Of a stretch of 64,000 nt of DNA, positions 16,917-25,503 are shown one piece after another; position 1 is the first letter of the stretch, and every line of letters begins with the position of its first letter. A program made the position numbers and the translations under genes. The DNA lies in contig NZ_JACCFO010000001.1 of the NCBI RefSeq assembly GCF_013410565.1, positions 1,984,001 to 2,048,000 of the forward strand. The letters are read 5' to 3'. The notes beneath the pieces were generated by a model, which worked only from the letters and a program-made list of their open reading frames with translations, searched no databases and was not told where the DNA came from. Origin of the DNA: Streptomonospora nanhaiensis (GTDB taxonomy: Bacteria > Actinomycetota > Actinomycetes > Streptosporangiales > Streptosporangiaceae).

Positions 16917-17495
16917 CTATCCGGCCTCGGGGTCGGGCAGGTCGAGTTCGTCGCCCTCGGCTTCCATCTCCTCGCGGACCACGCGGTAGGCCAGGCCCGA
17001 CGAGTAGCCCTTGCGCGCCAGCATGCCCAGGGTGCGCCGCGCGCGAGCGGCGGGATCGTGGCCCCGCGTGGAGGCGAGCTTGCGGCGCACCAGTCGGCGG
17101 GCGGTCTCCTCCTCCTGGTCGGGGCTGAGGTCGTCCACGGCCTCGCGGACGGTCTCCTCGGCCACGCCGCGCTGCCGCAGCTCGGCCGCGAGCGCGCGGC
17201 GGCCCAGCCCGCGCCCGGCGTGGCGGGAGTCGACCCAGGCGTCGGCGAAGGCGGCGTCGTCGATGATGCCGACTTCGCTGAAGCGGCTGAGCACGGACTC
17301 CGCGACGTCGTCGTCGATCCCCCGGCGCCGCAGCGCCTGGGCGAGCTGGGCCCGCGTGCGGGGAGCCGAGGTCAGCAGGCGCAGGCAGATGCCGCGCGCC
17401 TTGGCCTCGGGGTCCTCCTCCGCCGCGGGCCCCCCGCCCGCCCAGGTGCCGGAGCCGGCCGCGAGGGGGTCGTCGCCTCCGCGCGGATCAGGCAT
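16917..17495 (-). CDS. recX: Regulatory protein RecX
   Basis: RecX binds the RecA filament and limits its ATPase and recombinase activity. The 192-residue product has a short Gly/Asp-rich N-terminus and three RecX-type helical repeats, with typical motifs [43 protein letters not shown] and [29 protein letters not shown]. The ATG at 17495 overlaps the last eight bases of recA, so translation is coupled and expression should follow recA during SOS. A longer upstream frame exists inside recA but is Arg/Pro-rich shadow. Confidence 0.93.
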
Positions 17496-19770
17496 CCGTG
17501 CTCGGAGCGGCCTTGGTGCGCGCGGTCCGCTTGGCGGGCGCGGCGGCGGAGTCGGCCGCCGACGCCGCGGTGTCCTTGGCACCCGTGTCCTTGGCCGCCT
17601 CGGCCTTGGAGTCGGCAGGCGGCGCCCCGGCGGAGTCGTCGCCGGAGGCCCCGGGCACGCCCAGCTTCTCCTTGATCTTCTTCTCGATCTCGTTGGCCAT
17701 GTCGACGTTCTCGCGCAGGAAGTTCCGCGCGTTCTCCTTGCCCTGGCCCAACTGGGTGCCCTCGTAGGTGTACCAGGCACCGGACTTGCGCACGACGCCC
17801 TGCTCCACCCCGAGGTCGATCAGCCCGCCCTCGCGCGAGACGCCGACCCCGTAGAGGATGTCGAACTCCGCCTGCTTGAACGGCGGCGCGACCTTGTTCT
17901 TCACGACCTTGACCCGGGTCCGGTTGCCGACCGCGTCGGTACCGTCCTTCAACGTCTCGATCCGCCGGACGTCCAGCCGCACCGAGGCGTAGAACTTCAG
18001 CGCCCGGCCACCTGTGGTGGTTTCGGGGCTGTTGTGGACCATGACACCGTCCACGAAGTAGTTGTGGCTGCCTTCGACCTCGATGTCGAACCGGCGCATG
18101 CTGCGGGTGACCGGCTTGTCGTGGATGTCGAGGATGGGCGCCGCGACGAGCTTCTCCTGCGGCTCGGCGAACTCGGGCTCGACGGCGCACCGACCGCGGA
18201 AGCGAGGCAGCAACTTGTAGTCCATCGACTCGTGGACGTAGGGCGCGACGATCTCCTGGAAGCGCGCCGAGGCCGCCGTGGTGAAGCGGATGAACGCCTT
18301 GCGGGCGGATCCGCGCAGGGCCAGGCTGACGTCGAGGCCGTGGGTGTCGCGCAGGTACTCGACCAGCCGCTGGCGGGAGCCGGGGCTCATCGCCTCGACG
18401 CAGATCTCGATGCGGCCGCTGCCGCCCTCGGTCCGGGCCTGCACTCCCTTGGAGCGCAGGGTGAAGGAGCCGTCGTCCATGTACCAGACGGCCAGGGCCA
18501 GCGGGGTCAGCGACTTCAGGAACTCCCAGGTGAAGTGCTTCTTGCCGTCGCCGAAGTAGACGACCTCGCGGAGTTCGCTCAACTCCGGGAGCGGCGTGAA
18601 GTCGGCGAAGACGGCGCCCTTGGCGTTGGTGGTGCGGGAGTGCCCGATGTTGGCCAGGAGGGAGGTCTTCCACTCGAGGTAGGGCTCCTGCGCGGCGCCG
18701 TGCCCCATACGGAAGCGCACTCCGGTGCGTCCCCGGCGGTTGGGCGAGAGGTTGCCGTCGCCCATGATGGATCCGAAGACGATCTGGCGCTGCTGCTCGC
18801 TCAGGCGGTGGGTCTCGGTGGTCAGCACGCGGTCGCCCACCATGAGCTCGCCCGCCTCGCGCCATCCGCCGGGCGTGCGCACCAGGTGGTTGGGTGTGGC
18901 GGCGAACTGCGCCCGGCCGTTCTTTCCGGACTTGGCGACGGTGAACTGCAGGAAGAGGTCGGCGTTGCCGTTGTCGAACCAGTTGACGATCCTGCGCGGC
19001 ACGATCTTGTCGAGGTCGGGGTCGTAGGACATGACCTCGACGTCCATGCGCTGGTTGACGATCTTTCCGATTTTCTCCTGCGTTCCGTCGGCCAGGGTGA
19101 CCCGGGTGCCGTAGGACATGCACCCGAACATGACGCCGACCTTTTCCCGCAACTGGTTGATGAAAATCGCGGTGGTACCGGTCTGGTGCAGCGCACCGGC
19201 GATCTTGCGGAGGGCCTGGGACATCAGGCGGGCCTGGAGGCCGACGTGGCTGTCGCCCATCTCGCCCTCGATCTCGGCGCGCGGCACGAGGGCTGCCACG
19301 GAGTCGACCACCAGGATGGAGACCGCGCCGGAGCGGATCAGCATGTCGGCGATCTCCAGCGCCTGCTCGCCGGTGTCGGGCTGGGAAAGCAGGAGTTCGT
19401 CGGTGTCGACGCCGATTTTCTTCGCGTATTCCGGGTCGAGCGCGTGCTCGGCGTCAATGAACGCGGCGATTCCGCCAAGGCGCTGGGCATTGGCCACCGC
19501 GTGCAATGCCACGGTGGTTTTACCGCTCGATTCCGGTCCGTAAATCTCTACAATTCGCCCACGCGGAATTCCGCCGATTCCCAATGCGATATCCAGGGAA
19601 ATCGCCCCGGTGGGGATGGACTCGATCGGGGGGCGGTTGTCATCGCCTAGGCGCATGACGGAGCCCTTGCCGAACTGGCGCTCGATCTGCGCGAGCGCGG
19701 TTTCGAGAGCCTTCTCTCGGTCAGCAGCAGCCACGGGGAACCCCTGTTGGGTCGACGTCTTCTTCTTCAT
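17488..19770 (-). CDS. recA: RecA recombinase precursor containing an intein
   Basis: The 760-residue precursor consists of the RecA N-part (residues 1-216), an intein (217-580) and the RecA C-part (581-760). RecA pairs homologous DNA and triggers LexA self-cleavage. Walker [10 protein letters not shown] is at residues 78-86, and the Walker B region is [10 protein letters not shown]. The intein splits the conserved MFG/SPETTT junction next to DNA-binding loop L2, so no active RecA exists before splicing. After removal the protein would be 396 residues, longer than E. coli RecA because of an Ala/Lys-rich C-terminal tail. Start ATG at 19770 gives the usual MKKK-type N-terminus. A LexA box lies at 19959-19974, and recX follows with an 8-base overlap. 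Confidence 0.97.
18031..19122 (-). mobile_element. RecA intein with LAGLIDADG homing endonuclease
   Basis: The 364-residue intein starts with Cys ([13 protein letters not shown], block A), has the block B motif [11 protein letters not shown], and ends with block [22 protein letters not shown] followed by extein Ser, so all splicing residues are intact. Two endonuclease motifs, [12 protein letters not shown] and [13 protein letters not shown], keep their acidic residues, so the homing nuclease is probably active. From memory, the insertion point and sequence closely resemble the M. leprae RecA intein and differ from the M. tuberculosis one, which sits further downstream at the SPPFKQ junction. 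Confidence 0.95.
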
Positions 19771-20206
19771 GTTGAGAGCGACGCTACGCGGTCGTGAGGA
19801 CAATCCTCGACCGGGTCCGCGCTCCTGTGGACAACCGCCGCGGCCGGTGCGCGGCTGCGGAGGTCGTGGTCGCTCGCGGACGCCCGACCAGCGGGGCGTC
19901 GTGGTCCGCCGGAGGCCGATGAGACACATCACCGGCCCCGGATTCACCACCAGCCTACCCGAACCTCTGTTCGATCGCGTGTTTTCCCCACCTTCGCGGG
20001 CGGGTCGGGGGCGGGGCGGACGGTGGCCGGGGAGCGGATGTCGCCGCAGATCAGGCCGGTGGTACGGCGGAACCGGCGGATACCCGGCGGAACGGCGCGA
20101 TCGGGTGCGGCGGGTGCGGGCGGCGGCCCGCCCGCGCGGGGCGGCGCGGGTCCGCCCGCCCTTCTCGGACGCACCGGCGGCGGGCGGCGGCGCGCTGGGG
20201 CGGGTG
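19771..20206. other. recA upstream region
   Basis: These 436 bases between the DUF3046 gene and recA contain the LexA box at 19959-19974 and presumably the recA promoter. Apart from that, only GC-rich sequence without a supportable gene is seen. The long untranslated leader (about 190 bases from the LexA box to the ATG) is typical of actinobacterial recA genes. Confidence 0.6.
19959..19974. promoter_or_regulatory. LexA (SOS) box of recA
   Basis: The sequence CCGAAC-CTCT-GTTCGA matches the actinobacterial/Bacillus SOS consensus TCGAAC-N4-GTTCGA at 11 of 12 positions. It lies about 190 bases upstream of the recA start and in front of the recA-recX operon, where a LexA site is expected. Confidence 0.85.
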
Positions 20207-20401: not shown

Positions 20402-20637
20402 CCCCACCAGTATCGACGCCCGCGCAAGCGCTCGCGCCGTACCCGCCGCGCCGCCCCGCGCGGCCCCGCCGCGCCGCCTTCCCGGCCCCTCCCCCGCCTC
20501 CCGGCCTCCCCGTGCCGGCGGCCCCTCCCCGGCCTCCCGGCTCCGCGCCCGCCCTCTCCCGCCCGCCCCATCCCGGCCTCCGCCGCGCGCGGCACCGGTT
20601 CACCGGTTTCGTCGGTGCCGCGTTGCAGACTGGGCCC

Positions 20638-23600
20638 ATGGTGTCGACTCCCCAACCCCGCGGCCGCGGCGGCGCGGCCGGCGGCGACCCGCCGGCCCGG
20701 TTCTCCCCCGCCACGCGCGCCTGGTTCCGCGCCGCGTTCCCCGCCGGGGCCACGCCGGCGCAGGCCGGGGCCTGGGAGGCCATCGCCAAGGGCGACAACA
20801 CCCTGGTGGTGGCGCCCACGGGTTCGGGCAAGACCCTGTCGGCGTTCCTGTGGGCGCTGGACCGCCTGGCGGCCGAGCCGGTGCCCGACGACCGCGCGCT
20901 GCGCTGCCGGGTGCTCTACGTCTCGCCGCTCAAGGCGCTGGCCGCCGACATCGAGCGCAACCTGCGGGCGCCGCTCTCGGGCATCCGCCGCGCCGCCGAG
21001 CAGGCCGGCGCCCCCGTTCCCGCGCTGACGGTGGGCGTGCGCACCGGCGACACCCCCGCGAACGAGCGCCGCGCCCTGGCCACGGCGCCGCCGGACATCC
21101 TCATCACCACCCCCGAGTCCCTGTTCCTGGTCCTCACCTCCCAGGCCCGCGCCGGGCTGCGCGGGGTGCGCACCGTCATCGTCGACGAGGTCCACGCGCT
21201 GGCGGGCACCAAGCGCGGCGCGCACCTGGCGCTCAGCCTGGAGCGGCTGGACGCCCTGCTGGAGCGCCCCGCGCAGCGCATCGGCCTGTCGGCCACGGTG
21301 CGCCCGCACGACGAGGTCGCGCGGTTCCTCGGCGGCCCCCGGCCGGCCACGGTGGTGGCGCCGCCGAGCGCCCCGTCGATCGACGTCCGCATCGCCGTCC
21401 CGGTCGAGGACATGACCGAACTGGAGGCGTCGGTGGCGCCCGCGCGCGCCGACGACCGCGCCGCCAAGGCCCGCACCTCCATCTGGCCGCACGTCGAGGA
21501 GAAGGTCCTCGACCTGGTCGAGGCGCACCGCTCCTCCATCGTGTTCTGCAACTCCCGGCGGGTGGCCGAGCGGCTGTGCGCCCGGCTGAACGAGCTGGCG
21601 GCGGAGCGGCGCGCCCTCGACCGCGGGGACCGCCCCGACACCGGCGGCGCGGCCGGCGGCCCGCCCGGCGCGCCTTCCCTCGCGCCGGGCGGGCCGCCGG
21701 TGCCGCGCCTGTCCCCGGCCGAGGTGATGGCCGAGGCCGGGCAGACCTACGGGGTCGAGGCGGGTGTGGTGGCGCGGGCCCACCACGGCTCGGTGTCCAA
21801 GAGCGAGCGCGCGCGCATCGAGGACGACCTCAAGTCCGGCCGGCTGCCGTGCGTGGTGGCCACCTCCAGCCTGGAGTTGGGCATCGACATGGGCGCGGTC
21901 GACCTGGTGGTGCAGGTGGAGTCGCCGCCGTCGGTGGCCAGCGGCCTGCAGCGGGTGGGCCGCGCCGGGCACCAGGTGGGCGAGGTCTCGCGCGGGGTGC
22001 TGTTCCCGAAGTTCCGCGGCGACCTGCTGACCTCGGCGGTGGTGGTGGAGCGCATGCGTGCGGGCGCCATCGAGGCGCTGCGGATGCCGCTGAACCCGCT
22101 GGACGTCCTGGCCCAGCAGGTGGTGGCCATGGCCGCGATGGACGAGTGGCGGGTGGCCGACCTCGCCGCCCTGGTGCGGCGGGCCGCGCCGTTCGCCACC
22201 CTGCCCGACTCCGCGCTGTCGGGCGTGCTGGACATGCTGTCGGGCCGCTACCCCTCCGACGAGTTCGCGGAGCTGCGGCCGCGCCTGGTGTGGGACCGCG
22301 ACGCCGGCGGCGCGGGCTCGGGCGGCACGGTGTCGGGCCGCCCGGGGGCGCAGCGGCTGGCGGTGACCAGCGGCGGCACCATCCCCGACCGCGGCACCTA
22401 CGCGGTGCACCTGGCGGGCGGCGGGGCGGGCGCCCCCACGCGGGTGGGCGAACTCGACGAGGAGATGGTCTACGGGTCCCGGGTGGGCGACGTCTTCGTG
22501 CTGGGCGCCAGCGCCTGGCGCATCGAGAACATCACGGCCGACCGCGTGCTGGTGTCCCCCGCGCCGGGGCGTCCGGGCCGGCTGCCGTTCTGGAAGGCCG
22601 ACGCGCTGGGCCGCCCGGCGGAGCTGGGCCGGGCCATCGGGGCGCTGGCCCGCGAGCTGGGCGGCATGGACACTCCCGACGCGCTGAGGCGCGCCGCCGC
22701 GGCCGGCCTGGACGACTGGGCGGCGGCCAACCTGGTGGGGTACCTGGCCGAGCAGGAGGAGTCCACCGGCCGGGTGCCCGACGAACGCACCATCGTGGTG
22801 GAGCGGTTCCGCGACGAGCTGGGCGACTGGCGGGCGGTGGTGCACTCCCCGCTGGGCGCGCGGGTGCACGCGCCGTGGGCGCTGGTGATCGGCGCGCGGC
22901 TGCGGGAGCGCTACGGCCTGGACGCCCAGGTGGTGCACGGCGACGACGGCATCGTCGTGCGGCTGCCCGATGTCGAGGACTCCCCTGATGCTGGCGGCGA
23001 CACCGGGGCGGCGGGTGGCGGGCGCCGGCCGCGCGCGGCGGGGGCCGGGGGCCTGGCGGAGTCGCTGGTCGTGGCGCCTGATGATGTCGAGGACGCGGTC
23101 ACCGCCGAGCTGGGCGGTTCGGCGCTGTTCGCGGCGCGGTTCCGGGAGTGCGCCGCGCGGGCGCTGCTGCTGCCGCGCCGCCGCCCGGGGCGGCGGATGC
23201 CGCTGTGGCAGCAGCGGCAGCGCTCGGCGCAGCTGCTGTCGGTGGCGGGGCGCTTCGGGTCGTTCCCGATCGTGCTGGAGGCGGTGCGCGAGTGCCTGCG
23301 CGACGTGTTCGACGTGGGCGGGCTGGCCGAGCTGATGGCCGACATCCGGGCGCGGCGGGTGCGGGTGGTCGAGGTCGAGACCCCGCGCGCCTCGCCGTTC
23401 GCCCAGTCGCTGCTGATGGGCTACACGGCGGCGTTCCTGTACGAGGGCGACGCCCCGCTGGCGGAGCTGCGCGCCCAGGCGCTGACCCTGGACTCCGGCC
23501 TGCTGGCGGAGCTGCTGGGCCAGGCCGACCTGCGCGAACTGCTCGACTCCGCGGTGGTGGCCGAGTACGACTCCTGGCTGCAGCGGCTGGCGCCCGAGCG

Positions 23601-25503
23601 CCGGGTGGACCCCGCATCGGGCCGCGAGGGCGCCGCCGACCTGCTGCGGGAGCTGGGGCCGCTGTCCACGCGCGAGGCCGGTGAGCGCGGGGTGGCGCCC
23701 GAGGCGCTGGCGGAGCTGGCGGCGGCGCGGCGCGCGATCGAGGTCCGTGTGGCGGGCGAGGTCCGGTGGGCGGCGGTCGAGGACGCCGCGCGGCTGCGCG
23801 ACGGCGCGGGCGTGGAGCTGCCGGACTGGCTGGCGGCGGCCGGGCGCGGTGGCGCGGGTGCGGGTTGGGAGGGCGGCGGCGACCCGGGTGTGCCCGGCGG
23901 CGCGGCTTTCGCGGGCGCGGCCGAGGTGTTCGCGGCGCCGGTGGCCGACCCGCTGGGCGACCTGGTGTCGCGCTACGCGCGCACGCACGGGCCGTTCCGC
24001 GCCGACGACGCGGCCGCCCGGCTGGGGGTGGAGCGCGGGCGCGTGGTCGAGGCGCTGCGCCGGCTGGCCGGCACCGGGCGGGTCGTGGAGGGCGAGTTCC
24101 GTCCCGGCGGGCGGGGCACCGAGTGGTGCGACGCCGACGTCCTGCGGGCGCTCCGGCGGCGCTCGGTGGCGCGGCTGCGCCGTGAGGTCGAACCGGTGCC
24201 GCAGCGGGCCCTGGGGCGGTTCGTGCCGGCGTGGCAGCACGTGGCTGCGCTGGGGGCGGGCCCCGCGCCGCGGGGCGGCGGGCGGCGGCTGCGCGGCCCC
24301 GACGCGGTGTACTCGGCGGTGGAGTCGCTGCGGGGCGCGCCGGTGCCCGCCTCGGCGCTGGAGTCGCTGGTGCTGCCGGCGCGGGTCGAGGGCTACTCCC
24401 CGCCGCTGCTGGACGAGCTGACCCACGCCGGCGAGGTCCTGTGGGCGGGGGCGGGCCCGATGTCCGGCAACGACGGCTGGGTGTGCCTGGTCACCGCCGA
24501 CGAGGCGGCGGCCCTGCTGCCCGAGCCCGCCGACGACGATGCCGCCGGCTCCTCCGCCGCTCCGGCGCGCGCGGCGGTGCTGGCGGCGCTGCGCGAGGGC
24601 GGCGCGCTGTTCTTCCGCGACATCGCCGACCGGGTGGCGCGGGCCGAGGGCGCGGCGGCGGTCTCCGATGCCGCGATCGTGGCGGCGCTGTGGGACCTGG
24701 TGTGGTCGGGCCGGGTGGGCAACGACTCGGTGGCACCGCTGCGGGCACTGCTGGGCGCGGGCGGCACCGCGCACCGCAGCCGGTCGCGGCGCCCGGTCAT
24801 GCCCACGCGCACGGGGCCGCCCACGGCGGCGGGCCGGTGGTGGCTGCTGCCGGAGCGCGAACCCGACCCCACCCGCCGCCTGGCTGCGGGCACGGCGGCA
24901 CTGCTGGACCGCTACGGGGTGGTCACGCGGGGGGCGGTGGTGGCCGAGCAGGTGCGGCGGGGCGACCGCCGCCGCGCGGGCGGCGCGGGCGGGTTCAGCG
25001 CGGTCTACCCGGTGCTGCGCGGGTTCGAGGAGGCGGGCCGGGCGCGGCGCGGCTACTTCGTGGACGGCCTGGGCGCGGCGCAGTTCGCGCTGCCCGGGGC
25101 GGTCGACCGGCTGCGGGGCATGGCCGAGGGCGCGGGTGAGCCGCCGCTGGTGCTGGCGGCCGCCGACCCGGCGAACGTCTACGGCGCGGCGCTGCCGTGG
25201 CCGCCGGCGTCCGACACGTCGGGCCGCCCGGGCCGCAAGGCGGGCGCCCTGGTGGTGCTGGACGACGGCGCGCTGACCCTGTACCTGGAGCGCGGCGGCC
25301 GCTCGGCGCTGACCTTCGGGTCGCCGCAGCACGCCCTGAACCGCGCGGCACGGGCCCTGGCCGACACGGTCCAGGCGGGCGGCGTCGAATCCCTGACCGT
25401 CGAACGCGCCGACGGCGCCCCGGTGTTCGGCACCCCCCTCGACACCGCCCTGTCCGAGGCGGGCTTCCACGCCACCCCCAAGGGCCTCCGCCTACGCCGT
25501 TGA
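20638..25503 (+). CDS. lhr: Lhr family ATP-dependent DNA helicase
   Basis: The 1621-residue product is a large superfamily 2 helicase of the Lhr type, implicated in DNA repair and linked in mycobacteria to mitomycin C response. Walker A APTGSGKT is at residues 59-66 and the DEVH box near 183-186; ATTSLELGID-like TSSLELGIDMGAVDLVVQ and QRVGRAGHQ mark the second RecA domain. The C-terminal half (from about residue 870) is the Lhr-specific extension with winged-helix repeats. Several Gly/Ala-rich inserts (around 335-365, 780-800) look like linkers. ATG at 20638 was chosen because the frame upstream is Pro/Arg-rich. Confidence 0.93.
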   Translation: MVSTPQPRGRGGAAGGDPPARFSPATRAWFRAAFPAGATPAQAGAWEAIAKGDNTLVVAPTGSGKTLSAFLWALDRLAAEPVPDDRALRCRVLYVSPLKALAADIERNLRAPLSGIRRAAEQAGAPVPALTVGVRTGDTPANERRALATAPPDILITTPESLFLVLTSQARAGLRGVRTVIVDEVHALAGTKRGAHLALSLERLDALLERPAQRIGLSATVRPHDEVARFLGGPRPATVVAPPSAPSIDVRIAVPVEDMTELEASVAPARADDRAAKARTSIWPHVEEKVLDLVEAHRSSIVFCNSRRVAERLCARLNELAAERRALDRGDRPDTGGAAGGPPGAPSLAPGGPPVPRLSPAEVMAEAGQTYGVEAGVVARAHHGSVSKSERARIEDDLKSGRLPCVVATSSLELGIDMGAVDLVVQVESPPSVASGLQRVGRAGHQVGEVSRGVLFPKFRGDLLTSAVVVERMRAGAIEALRMPLNPLDVLAQQVVAMAAMDEWRVADLAALVRRAAPFATLPDSALSGVLDMLSGRYPSDEFAELRPRLVWDRDAGGAGSGGTVSGRPGAQRLAVTSGGTIPDRGTYAVHLAGGGAGAPTRVGELDEEMVYGSRVGDVFVLGASAWRIENITADRVLVSPAPGRPGRLPFWKADALGRPAELGRAIGALARELGGMDTPDALRRAAAAGLDDWAAANLVGYLAEQEESTGRVPDERTIVVERFRDELGDWRAVVHSPLGARVHAPWALVIGARLRERYGLDAQVVHGDDGIVVRLPDVEDSPDAGGDTGAAGGGRRPRAAGAGGLAESLVVAPDDVEDAVTAELGGSALFAARFRECAARALLLPRRRPGRRMPLWQQRQRSAQLLSVAGRFGSFPIVLEAVRECLRDVFDVGGLAELMADIRARRVRVVEVETPRASPFAQSLLMGYTAAFLYEGDAPLAELRAQALTLDSGLLAELLGQADLRELLDSAVVAEYDSWLQRLAPERRVDPASGREGAADLLRELGPLSTREAGERGVAPEALAELAAARRAIEVRVAGEVRWAAVEDAARLRDGAGVELPDWLAAAGRGGAGAGWEGGGDPGVPGGAAFAGAAEVFAAPVADPLGDLVSRYARTHGPFRADDAAARLGVERGRVVEALRRLAGTGRVVEGEFRPGGRGTEWCDADVLRALRRRSVARLRREVEPVPQRALGRFVPAWQHVAALGAGPAPRGGGRRLRGPDAVYSAVESLRGAPVPASALESLVLPARVEGYSPPLLDELTHAGEVLWAGAGPMSGNDGWVCLVTADEAAALLPEPADDDAAGSSAAPARAAVLAALREGGALFFRDIADRVARAEGAAAVSDAAIVAALWDLVWSGRVGNDSVAPLRALLGAGGTAHRSRSRRPVMPTRTGPPTAAGRWWLLPEREPDPTRRLAAGTAALLDRYGVVTRGAVVAEQVRRGDRRRAGGAGGFSAVYPVLRGFEEAGRARRGYFVDGLGAAQFALPGAVDRLRGMAEGAGEPPLVLAAADPANVYGAALPWPPASDTSGRPGRKAGALVVLDDGALTLYLERGGRSALTFGSPQHALNRAARALADTVQAGGVESLTVERADGAPVFGTPLDTALSEAGFHATPKGLRLRR

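Follow-up and report, generated by a model that had tools for sequence, protein, structure and literature searches.

The 64,000-nucleotide stretch of Streptomonospora nanhaiensis DNA analysed here (the window) carries recA on its minus strand, in an open frame that runs from 19950 down to 17488. Translation probably starts at an ATG at 19770, which places recA with its intein at 17488–19770; a GTG start at 19734–19732 is possible. The gene is split by a 364-residue intein that occupies exactly 18031–19122 on the minus strand (Cys1 to Asn364, residues 218–581 of the recA translation), and lies between MFG and SPE of RecA, the position of the RecA-b allele. It separates an N-extein ending in KVGVMFG (19123–19770, minus strand) from a C-extein that includes the stop codon (17488–18030, minus strand). 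The ligated RecA would have 396 residues counted from the ATG, or 384 from the GTG. Both the split at MFG/SPETTT by an intein of this length and the 396-residue product had been claimed in the original prediction, and both are borne out. A frame containing recX lies downstream of recA (16917–17780, minus strand), and a large ATP-dependent helicase adjoins recA on the plus strand (20512–25503, NF007284 match above cut-off). Over window positions 1–64000, ARAGORN reported no tRNA genes, and no Rfam family reached its gathering score.

The residues needed for splicing in a class 1 intein are present. These are Cys1, the N-terminal nucleophile of the RecA-b intein; TPNH at intein residues 76–79 (18886–18897), which shows the TxxH pattern and which we take to be splicing block B; and a C-terminal VHN (residues 362–364, 18031–18039) followed by Ser+1, encoded by AGC (18028–18030). 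The putative LAGLIDADG homing endonuclease domain (PF03161, 18259–18789) contains the motifs GSIMGDGN (residues 117–124, 18751–18774) and WYMDDGSF (residues 213–220, 18463–18486), all of these features being on the minus strand. The splice residues and the two motifs had been described as intact, and each was found in the translation. Pfam matched RecA in the recA translation (E = 4e-135) and LAGLIDADG_2 (PF03161) in the intein (E = 1.6e-38), with Intein_splicing at E = 1.7e-5, under that family's own cut-off. Of the NCBIfam models, intein_Nterm scored 44.2 bits against a cut-off of 24.5 and intein_Cterm 26.2 against 15.6, and the equivalog "intein-containing recombinase RecA" scored 612, under its cut-off of 1024. 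Across the 6.28 Mb host genome, no other intein_Nterm match reached E ≤ 0.001. Because the intein is free of stop codons, chance is excluded.

We take MFG|S to be the insertion site of the M. leprae RecA intein; the MFG|S allele supports the M. leprae-type insertion point of the original prediction. The site of the M. tuberculosis RecA intein, PI-MtuI, is different, presumably KNK|C. The length of 364 residues is nearly identical to that of the M. leprae-type RecA intein, given as 365 aa in a table that lists 440 for PI-MtuI (PMC8861304). The window copy differs from the M. leprae intein in its host, Streptomonospora, and in belonging to a Nocardiopsidaceae branch by sequence.

The structure of the intein was modelled with AlphaFold2 from an 18-row alignment (pLDDT 91.6, pTM 0.84). 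Comparison of the whole chain with the PDB showed resemblance to the endonuclease-bearing inteins TliVMA, PI-PfuI and VMA1. The splicing part superposed on Mtu RecA intein chains at 1.3–1.8 Å over 102–109 columns, and the predicted splicing fold is that of the solved PI-MtuI splicing domain (e.g. 2in0; 36% identity over 102 columns). Taken alone, the modelled endonuclease part found its best fold matches in the solved LAGLIDADG endonucleases I-SceI and I-WcaI (target TM about 0.70, 3.8–5.7 Å over 205–227 columns), although sequence identity to these is only 18–20% and the window endonuclease is embedded in an intein. The predicted architecture is a Hint splicing fold broken by an endonuclease domain, that of a full-length class 1 intein.

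The two motifs carry the acidic residues of LAGLIDADG homing endonucleases: in the 18-row alignment, Asp122 of the first and Asp216 of the second are invariant, and conservation of Asp217, also in the second, is 90% or more. For the M. leprae enzyme, Asp122 and Asp193 are reportedly important. Asp192 of the window intein would presumably be the counterpart of the latter, and it is absent from the conserved columns of this alignment. Between the window and its sister species (G040), the endonuclease part has accumulated 7 non-synonymous and 31 synonymous changes (dN/dS 0.065). The original prediction had called the endonuclease apparently active, which the intact motifs, the confidently predicted fold and this ratio support; a low dN/dS over a short time is no proof of activity. 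The ratio rises with distance, to 0.22 for the window and G018 and 0.26 for the window and G026. An endonuclease that is already dead, with splicing alone maintained, would account for values of 0.22 in the pairs window–G018 and G088–G113 that exceed those of the exteins (0.08 and 0.12). We consider this unlikely, given the full length of 364 residues, the intact motifs with their two invariant aspartates, and the low ratio against the sister species.

With a working intein, RecA would be made as a precursor from which the intein excises itself, joining MFG to SPETTT to give ordinary RecA. In recA alleles that lack the intein, the I-SceI-like LAGLIDADG endonuclease would cleave this site, and repair of the break would copy in the intein along with very little flanking sequence. 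Since RecA would repair the break by which the intein spreads, a RecA intein would have to splice for its own homing in that cell.

To describe the distribution of the intein, we counted matches that covered the full 364 positions and had E values of 1.7e-143 or lower in sampled genomes of the host's order. The b intein was present in 41 of 297 genomes, in recA in every case. The closest named relative of the window copy was in Streptomonospora mangrovi (98% identity over the intein). A collection scan gave 56 loci, the partial loci L055 and L056 being left out, and a RecA frame spans the intein in 54 of them (L053 is cut by a contig end). The b allele is spread over many actinobacterial orders, and also occurs in MAGs titled Pyrinomonadaceae (L051) and Armatimonadetes (L053, L054), at the same RecA site and with 41–43% identity. 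The window copy itself is unremarkable, a well-preserved example of a known family in a new host. Within the genus, six genomes were compared: the window has the b intein and an empty site in the P-loop, G026 has the b intein only, and G074 has neither intein.

Trees were built for the exteins (58 sequences) and for the b inteins (57). In the latter tree, the nearest neighbours of the window copy are S. mangrovi, G026 and Actinorugispora, followed by Nocardiopsis, all within Nocardiopsidaceae; the mycobacterial copies group with Nocardiaceae, apart from it. For the window's subtype the intein and extein trees broadly agree. Synonymous divergence of the intein is close to that of the exteins: dS between the window and G018 is 0.533 for the splicing part, 0.597 for the endonuclease and 0.503 for the extein, and between the window and G040 it is 0.138, 0.225 and 0.132, respectively. 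The last endonuclease value, which exceeds that of the extein, counts against vertical descent. We conclude that the window copy was probably inherited vertically within Nocardiopsidaceae.

The original prediction had held that presence outside mycobacteria implies horizontal movement. For the window copy this was not borne out, considering the many orders in which the intein occurs, the grouping in Nocardiopsidaceae and the dS values, and the proposed comparison of intein and extein trees likewise argues against recent transfer. Recent acquisition from mycobacteria or another distant group could be read from the 70–73% identity of same-site inteins in Mycobacteriaceae (L017, L022, L049) and from the crossing of families by a second subtype, described below. 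The tree placement and the dS values disfavour such an import, since the window copy does not group with mycobacterial copies against the RecA tree, and we regard it as highly improbable.

Subtype II, a group that we named after the tree was seen, comprises inteins of 368–369 residues from Actinomadura (L031), Streptomyces (L034), Micromonospora (L036) and Streptomonospora (L037, L102). It forms a 100/100 clade in the intein tree, and the same hosts as one extein clade were rejected (p-AU 7.6e-69). On this phylogenetic evidence, transfer across families is real for subtype II. Because of subtype II, the inteins of family members do not form one clade (rejected in the 57-row intein tree, p-AU 0.006), which confines vertical descent to the window's subtype. 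All Streptomonospora inteins as a single clade were also rejected (p 0.014), and their exteins as one clade were not (p 0.24). For the pair G087–G047, dS of the two intein parts is 1.2 and 4.4 (saturated), compared with 0.43 for the extein, which suggests that the b inteins of these two genomes arrived separately. The first 20 residues of the b intein of G026 (L103:4207–5298) resemble subtype II, with an identity of 0.95 to G087 and 0.70 to the window, and most of the rest resembles subtype I. Together with dS values against the window of 1.26 for the splicing part and 0.52 for the endonuclease, this suggests that the G026 intein is a chimera of the two subtypes.

The codon of the serine that follows the intein was examined across the order, AGY and TCN serine codons not being interchangeable by one silent change. 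Ser+1 is AGY in 41 of 41 b-bearing recA genes (39 of 39 parsed by script and two read separately) and in 24 of 89 sampled b-less genes. The b-less sample consists of G074, 29 of the 30 best-scoring loci, 53 hand-chosen from a listing, and six with P or a inteins; L113 (Asn at +1), L058 (a duplicate) and L199 (not recA) were left out. The association gives a Fisher p of 6.8e-17, a value that ignores kinship. Among 12 conserved RecA serine columns, seven never vary in codon class, and Ser+1 is the only one of the five varying columns that shows the association. Kinship was addressed with independent pairs on a DNA tree from which the 25 codons flanking the site on each side had been removed. In 200 pairings of the 19 independent pairs that differ in intein presence, on average 12.1 differed in codon the same way, 0.0 the opposite way and 6.9 not at all (median p 0.0005 in a sign test). 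On a protein tree, in which fewer branches were supported, 7 pairs were available and the median p was 0.06. Codon and intein thus appear together on independent branches, which suggests a footprint of repeated homing.

At the level of the class, 345 genomes were sampled. The 17 b-bearing genomes outside the order comprise 6 AGY, 10 TCN and one unreadable codon, and the empty sites there, exact-pattern matches assigned to recA by pattern alone, comprise 25 AGY and 154 TCN (p 0.025); 115 of the 345 genomes gave neither the empty-site pattern nor the intein. Without family f6, an exclusion decided after the data were seen, the AGY counts are 6 of 9 against 19 of 157 (p 0.0004). Family f6 alone has AGY in 0 of 7 b-bearing and 6 of 22 empty sites. 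Together with the class-wide counts, f6 indicates that the codon follows intein lineage rather than intein presence as such. Among the named loci, AGY is found in 13 of 13 from Streptosporangiales and 0 of 7 from Mycobacteriales.

Our preferred reading is that AGY arises as a short flank copied at homing. A broad copied flank was looked for in b-bearing recA genes by cross-genus pairs, and no 10-codon bin had a clear excess of identity (−0.06 to +0.03); a clear increase was confined to the +1 codon, and codon −6 (Val or Ile) showed a smaller one. For this reason a target preference, in which TCN alleles resist this endonuclease clade and only AGY alleles are invaded, is also conceivable, and the AGY lineages that lack the intein (24 of 89) would fit it. 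Codons ending in A or T, however, cluster within 8 codons of the site in two of the 7 loci tested, L012 (6 of 16, p 0.0004) and L034 (4 of 16, p 0.009); the cluster is weak in L036 (p 0.06) and there is none in L031, L037, L004 or L001. Furthermore, L034, from Streptomyces regalis, has AGC, while 32 of 32 sampled genomes of group f20/g79 (Streptomyces by inference) have TCN and none AGY. On balance target preference seems possible, if somewhat doubtful. A bolder proposal combines a serine codon that acts as a heritable homing switch, with TCN immune in the AGY-associated clades, and RecA as a hub for inteins at three sites (P-loop, b and a), each homing separately and each gained and lost independently of the others. 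We offer it as speculation and consider it unlikely; if it were true, synonymous recA sequence would decide which species a selfish element can enter.

Taken together, the locus very likely holds a full-length, probably working RecA-b intein that descended vertically within Nocardiopsidaceae and belongs to a family repeatedly gained and lost in the order, beside separate inteins at two other RecA sites. These wider recA intein dynamics are of more interest than the window copy.

We also considered the consequences for the SOS response. A LexA homologue is encoded in the host genome, and upstream of recA, on the minus strand, lie an SOS-box-like site, GAACAGAGGTTC (19961–19972), and the sequence TTGTC-N12-TANNNT (19781–19803), presumably a RecA-NDp-like promoter element of the PafBC type. 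The former is the same in 6 of 6 genus members and the latter is found in all 6. The upstream scan covered 22 loci, in seven of which no start was found; in nine other loci with a start, the GAAC-N4-GTTC site occurs in 7 and the RecA-NDp-like element in 3. There were 13 WYL-domain matches, the candidates for PafB and PafC. It is a fair inference that SOS induction would depend on splicing, as originally proposed. Elements of the RecA-NDp type act without RecA, so that induction of recA itself need not wait for splicing, whereas LexA cleavage would.

Conditional splicing could have been retained because it regulates RecA and the SOS response. RecA stands on top of that response, the LexA homologue and SOS-box-like site are present, and conditional splicing is described for mycobacterial DnaB (PMC6195587) and P. 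horikoshii RadA (PMC5790916). Against this, the presence of the intein is patchy, with the recA of one of six genus members intein-free, a pattern more readily explained by a mobile element than by a switch that the cell requires. The promoter also has its second element, which as noted would act without RecA. We therefore consider a regulatory role very unlikely.

A second intein site splits the Walker A loop at GPESSGK|T, after Lys and before Thr. It holds a 433-residue intein (the P intein) in three of the six genus genomes (G040, G047 and G087), and is empty in the window (GK|T, AAA|ACC; 19516–19521, minus strand). Inteins of 430–434 residues at GK|T also occur at L002:1306–2604, L037:1306–2604, L102:3529–4827 and other loci, where the gene often contains a b intein as well. 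Among the inteins scanned, the endonuclease belongs to PF14528 in the two P inteins and to another family, PF03161, in the three b inteins. Both inteins are present in 8 of the 54 named loci. Among the 297 genomes of the order, the P intein occurs in 16, of which 12 also have b and 4 do not; b alone occurs in 29, and 252 lack both.

The closest relative found for the window carries P and b, and the window b only. P-intein dS among G040, G047 and G087 is 0.38–0.53, and extein dS for the same pairs 0.43–0.50, which fits a P intein that was inherited vertically within the genus and lost on the window's branch. Alternatively, G040 may have gained its P intein from a congener.

Three further proposals concerning this site were rejected. 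That P and b travel together was suggested by the presence of b in 12 of 16 P-bearing against 29 of 281 P-less genomes (Fisher 1.2e-8); on independent branches no link was evident (9 pairs, median p 0.63), so that shared ancestry is sufficient. A replaced tract around the empty site was not supported. Over the first 330 aligned RecA codons, 31 positions distinguish the window from G040, and 15 of these fall in codons 58–102; the scan gave p 0.002 with differences placed on third positions, 0.06 among genus-variable sites and 0.21 for 30 codons on each side of the P site. The AAA lysine codon as a mark of escape was dropped: in a first set of rows it is found at the P site in 7 of 49 that lack the P intein and 0 of 9 that carry it, and in a second set in 3 of 108 and 0 of 4, respectively, and AAA makes up 165 of 3554 lysine codons in these recA frames.

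The genus forms a natural series of no intein, b only, and P-loop plus b. Combined with the serine-codon marker, it offers a way to test how neighbouring inteins in an actinobacterial repair gene are gained, are lost and interfere with one another. Several inteins in one replication or repair gene are known from M. smegmatis DnaB, with two inteins, one of them at the P-loop (PMC6195587), and from Haloarchaea MCM, also with two (PMC10643990); recA relatives of the window copy resemble these, although the gene differs and the window copy itself holds one intein. No P-loop intein in RecA and no two-intein RecA was found in the literature searched, which was mostly non-subscription and included passages of PMC5050341, PMC8529194, PMC8861304, PMC6195587 and PMC10643990; this is weak evidence of absence.

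Two loci from the searches stand apart from these series. The RecA of a Nocardioidaceae MAG (L015) has a b intein and a second intein at KNK|C, which we take to be the M. tuberculosis-type site. A full-length relative with 30% identity to the window intein (L199, in G221) lies in an RNA-ligase-like protein, not RecA, where the insertion motif, read by eye, is KLDG|S.
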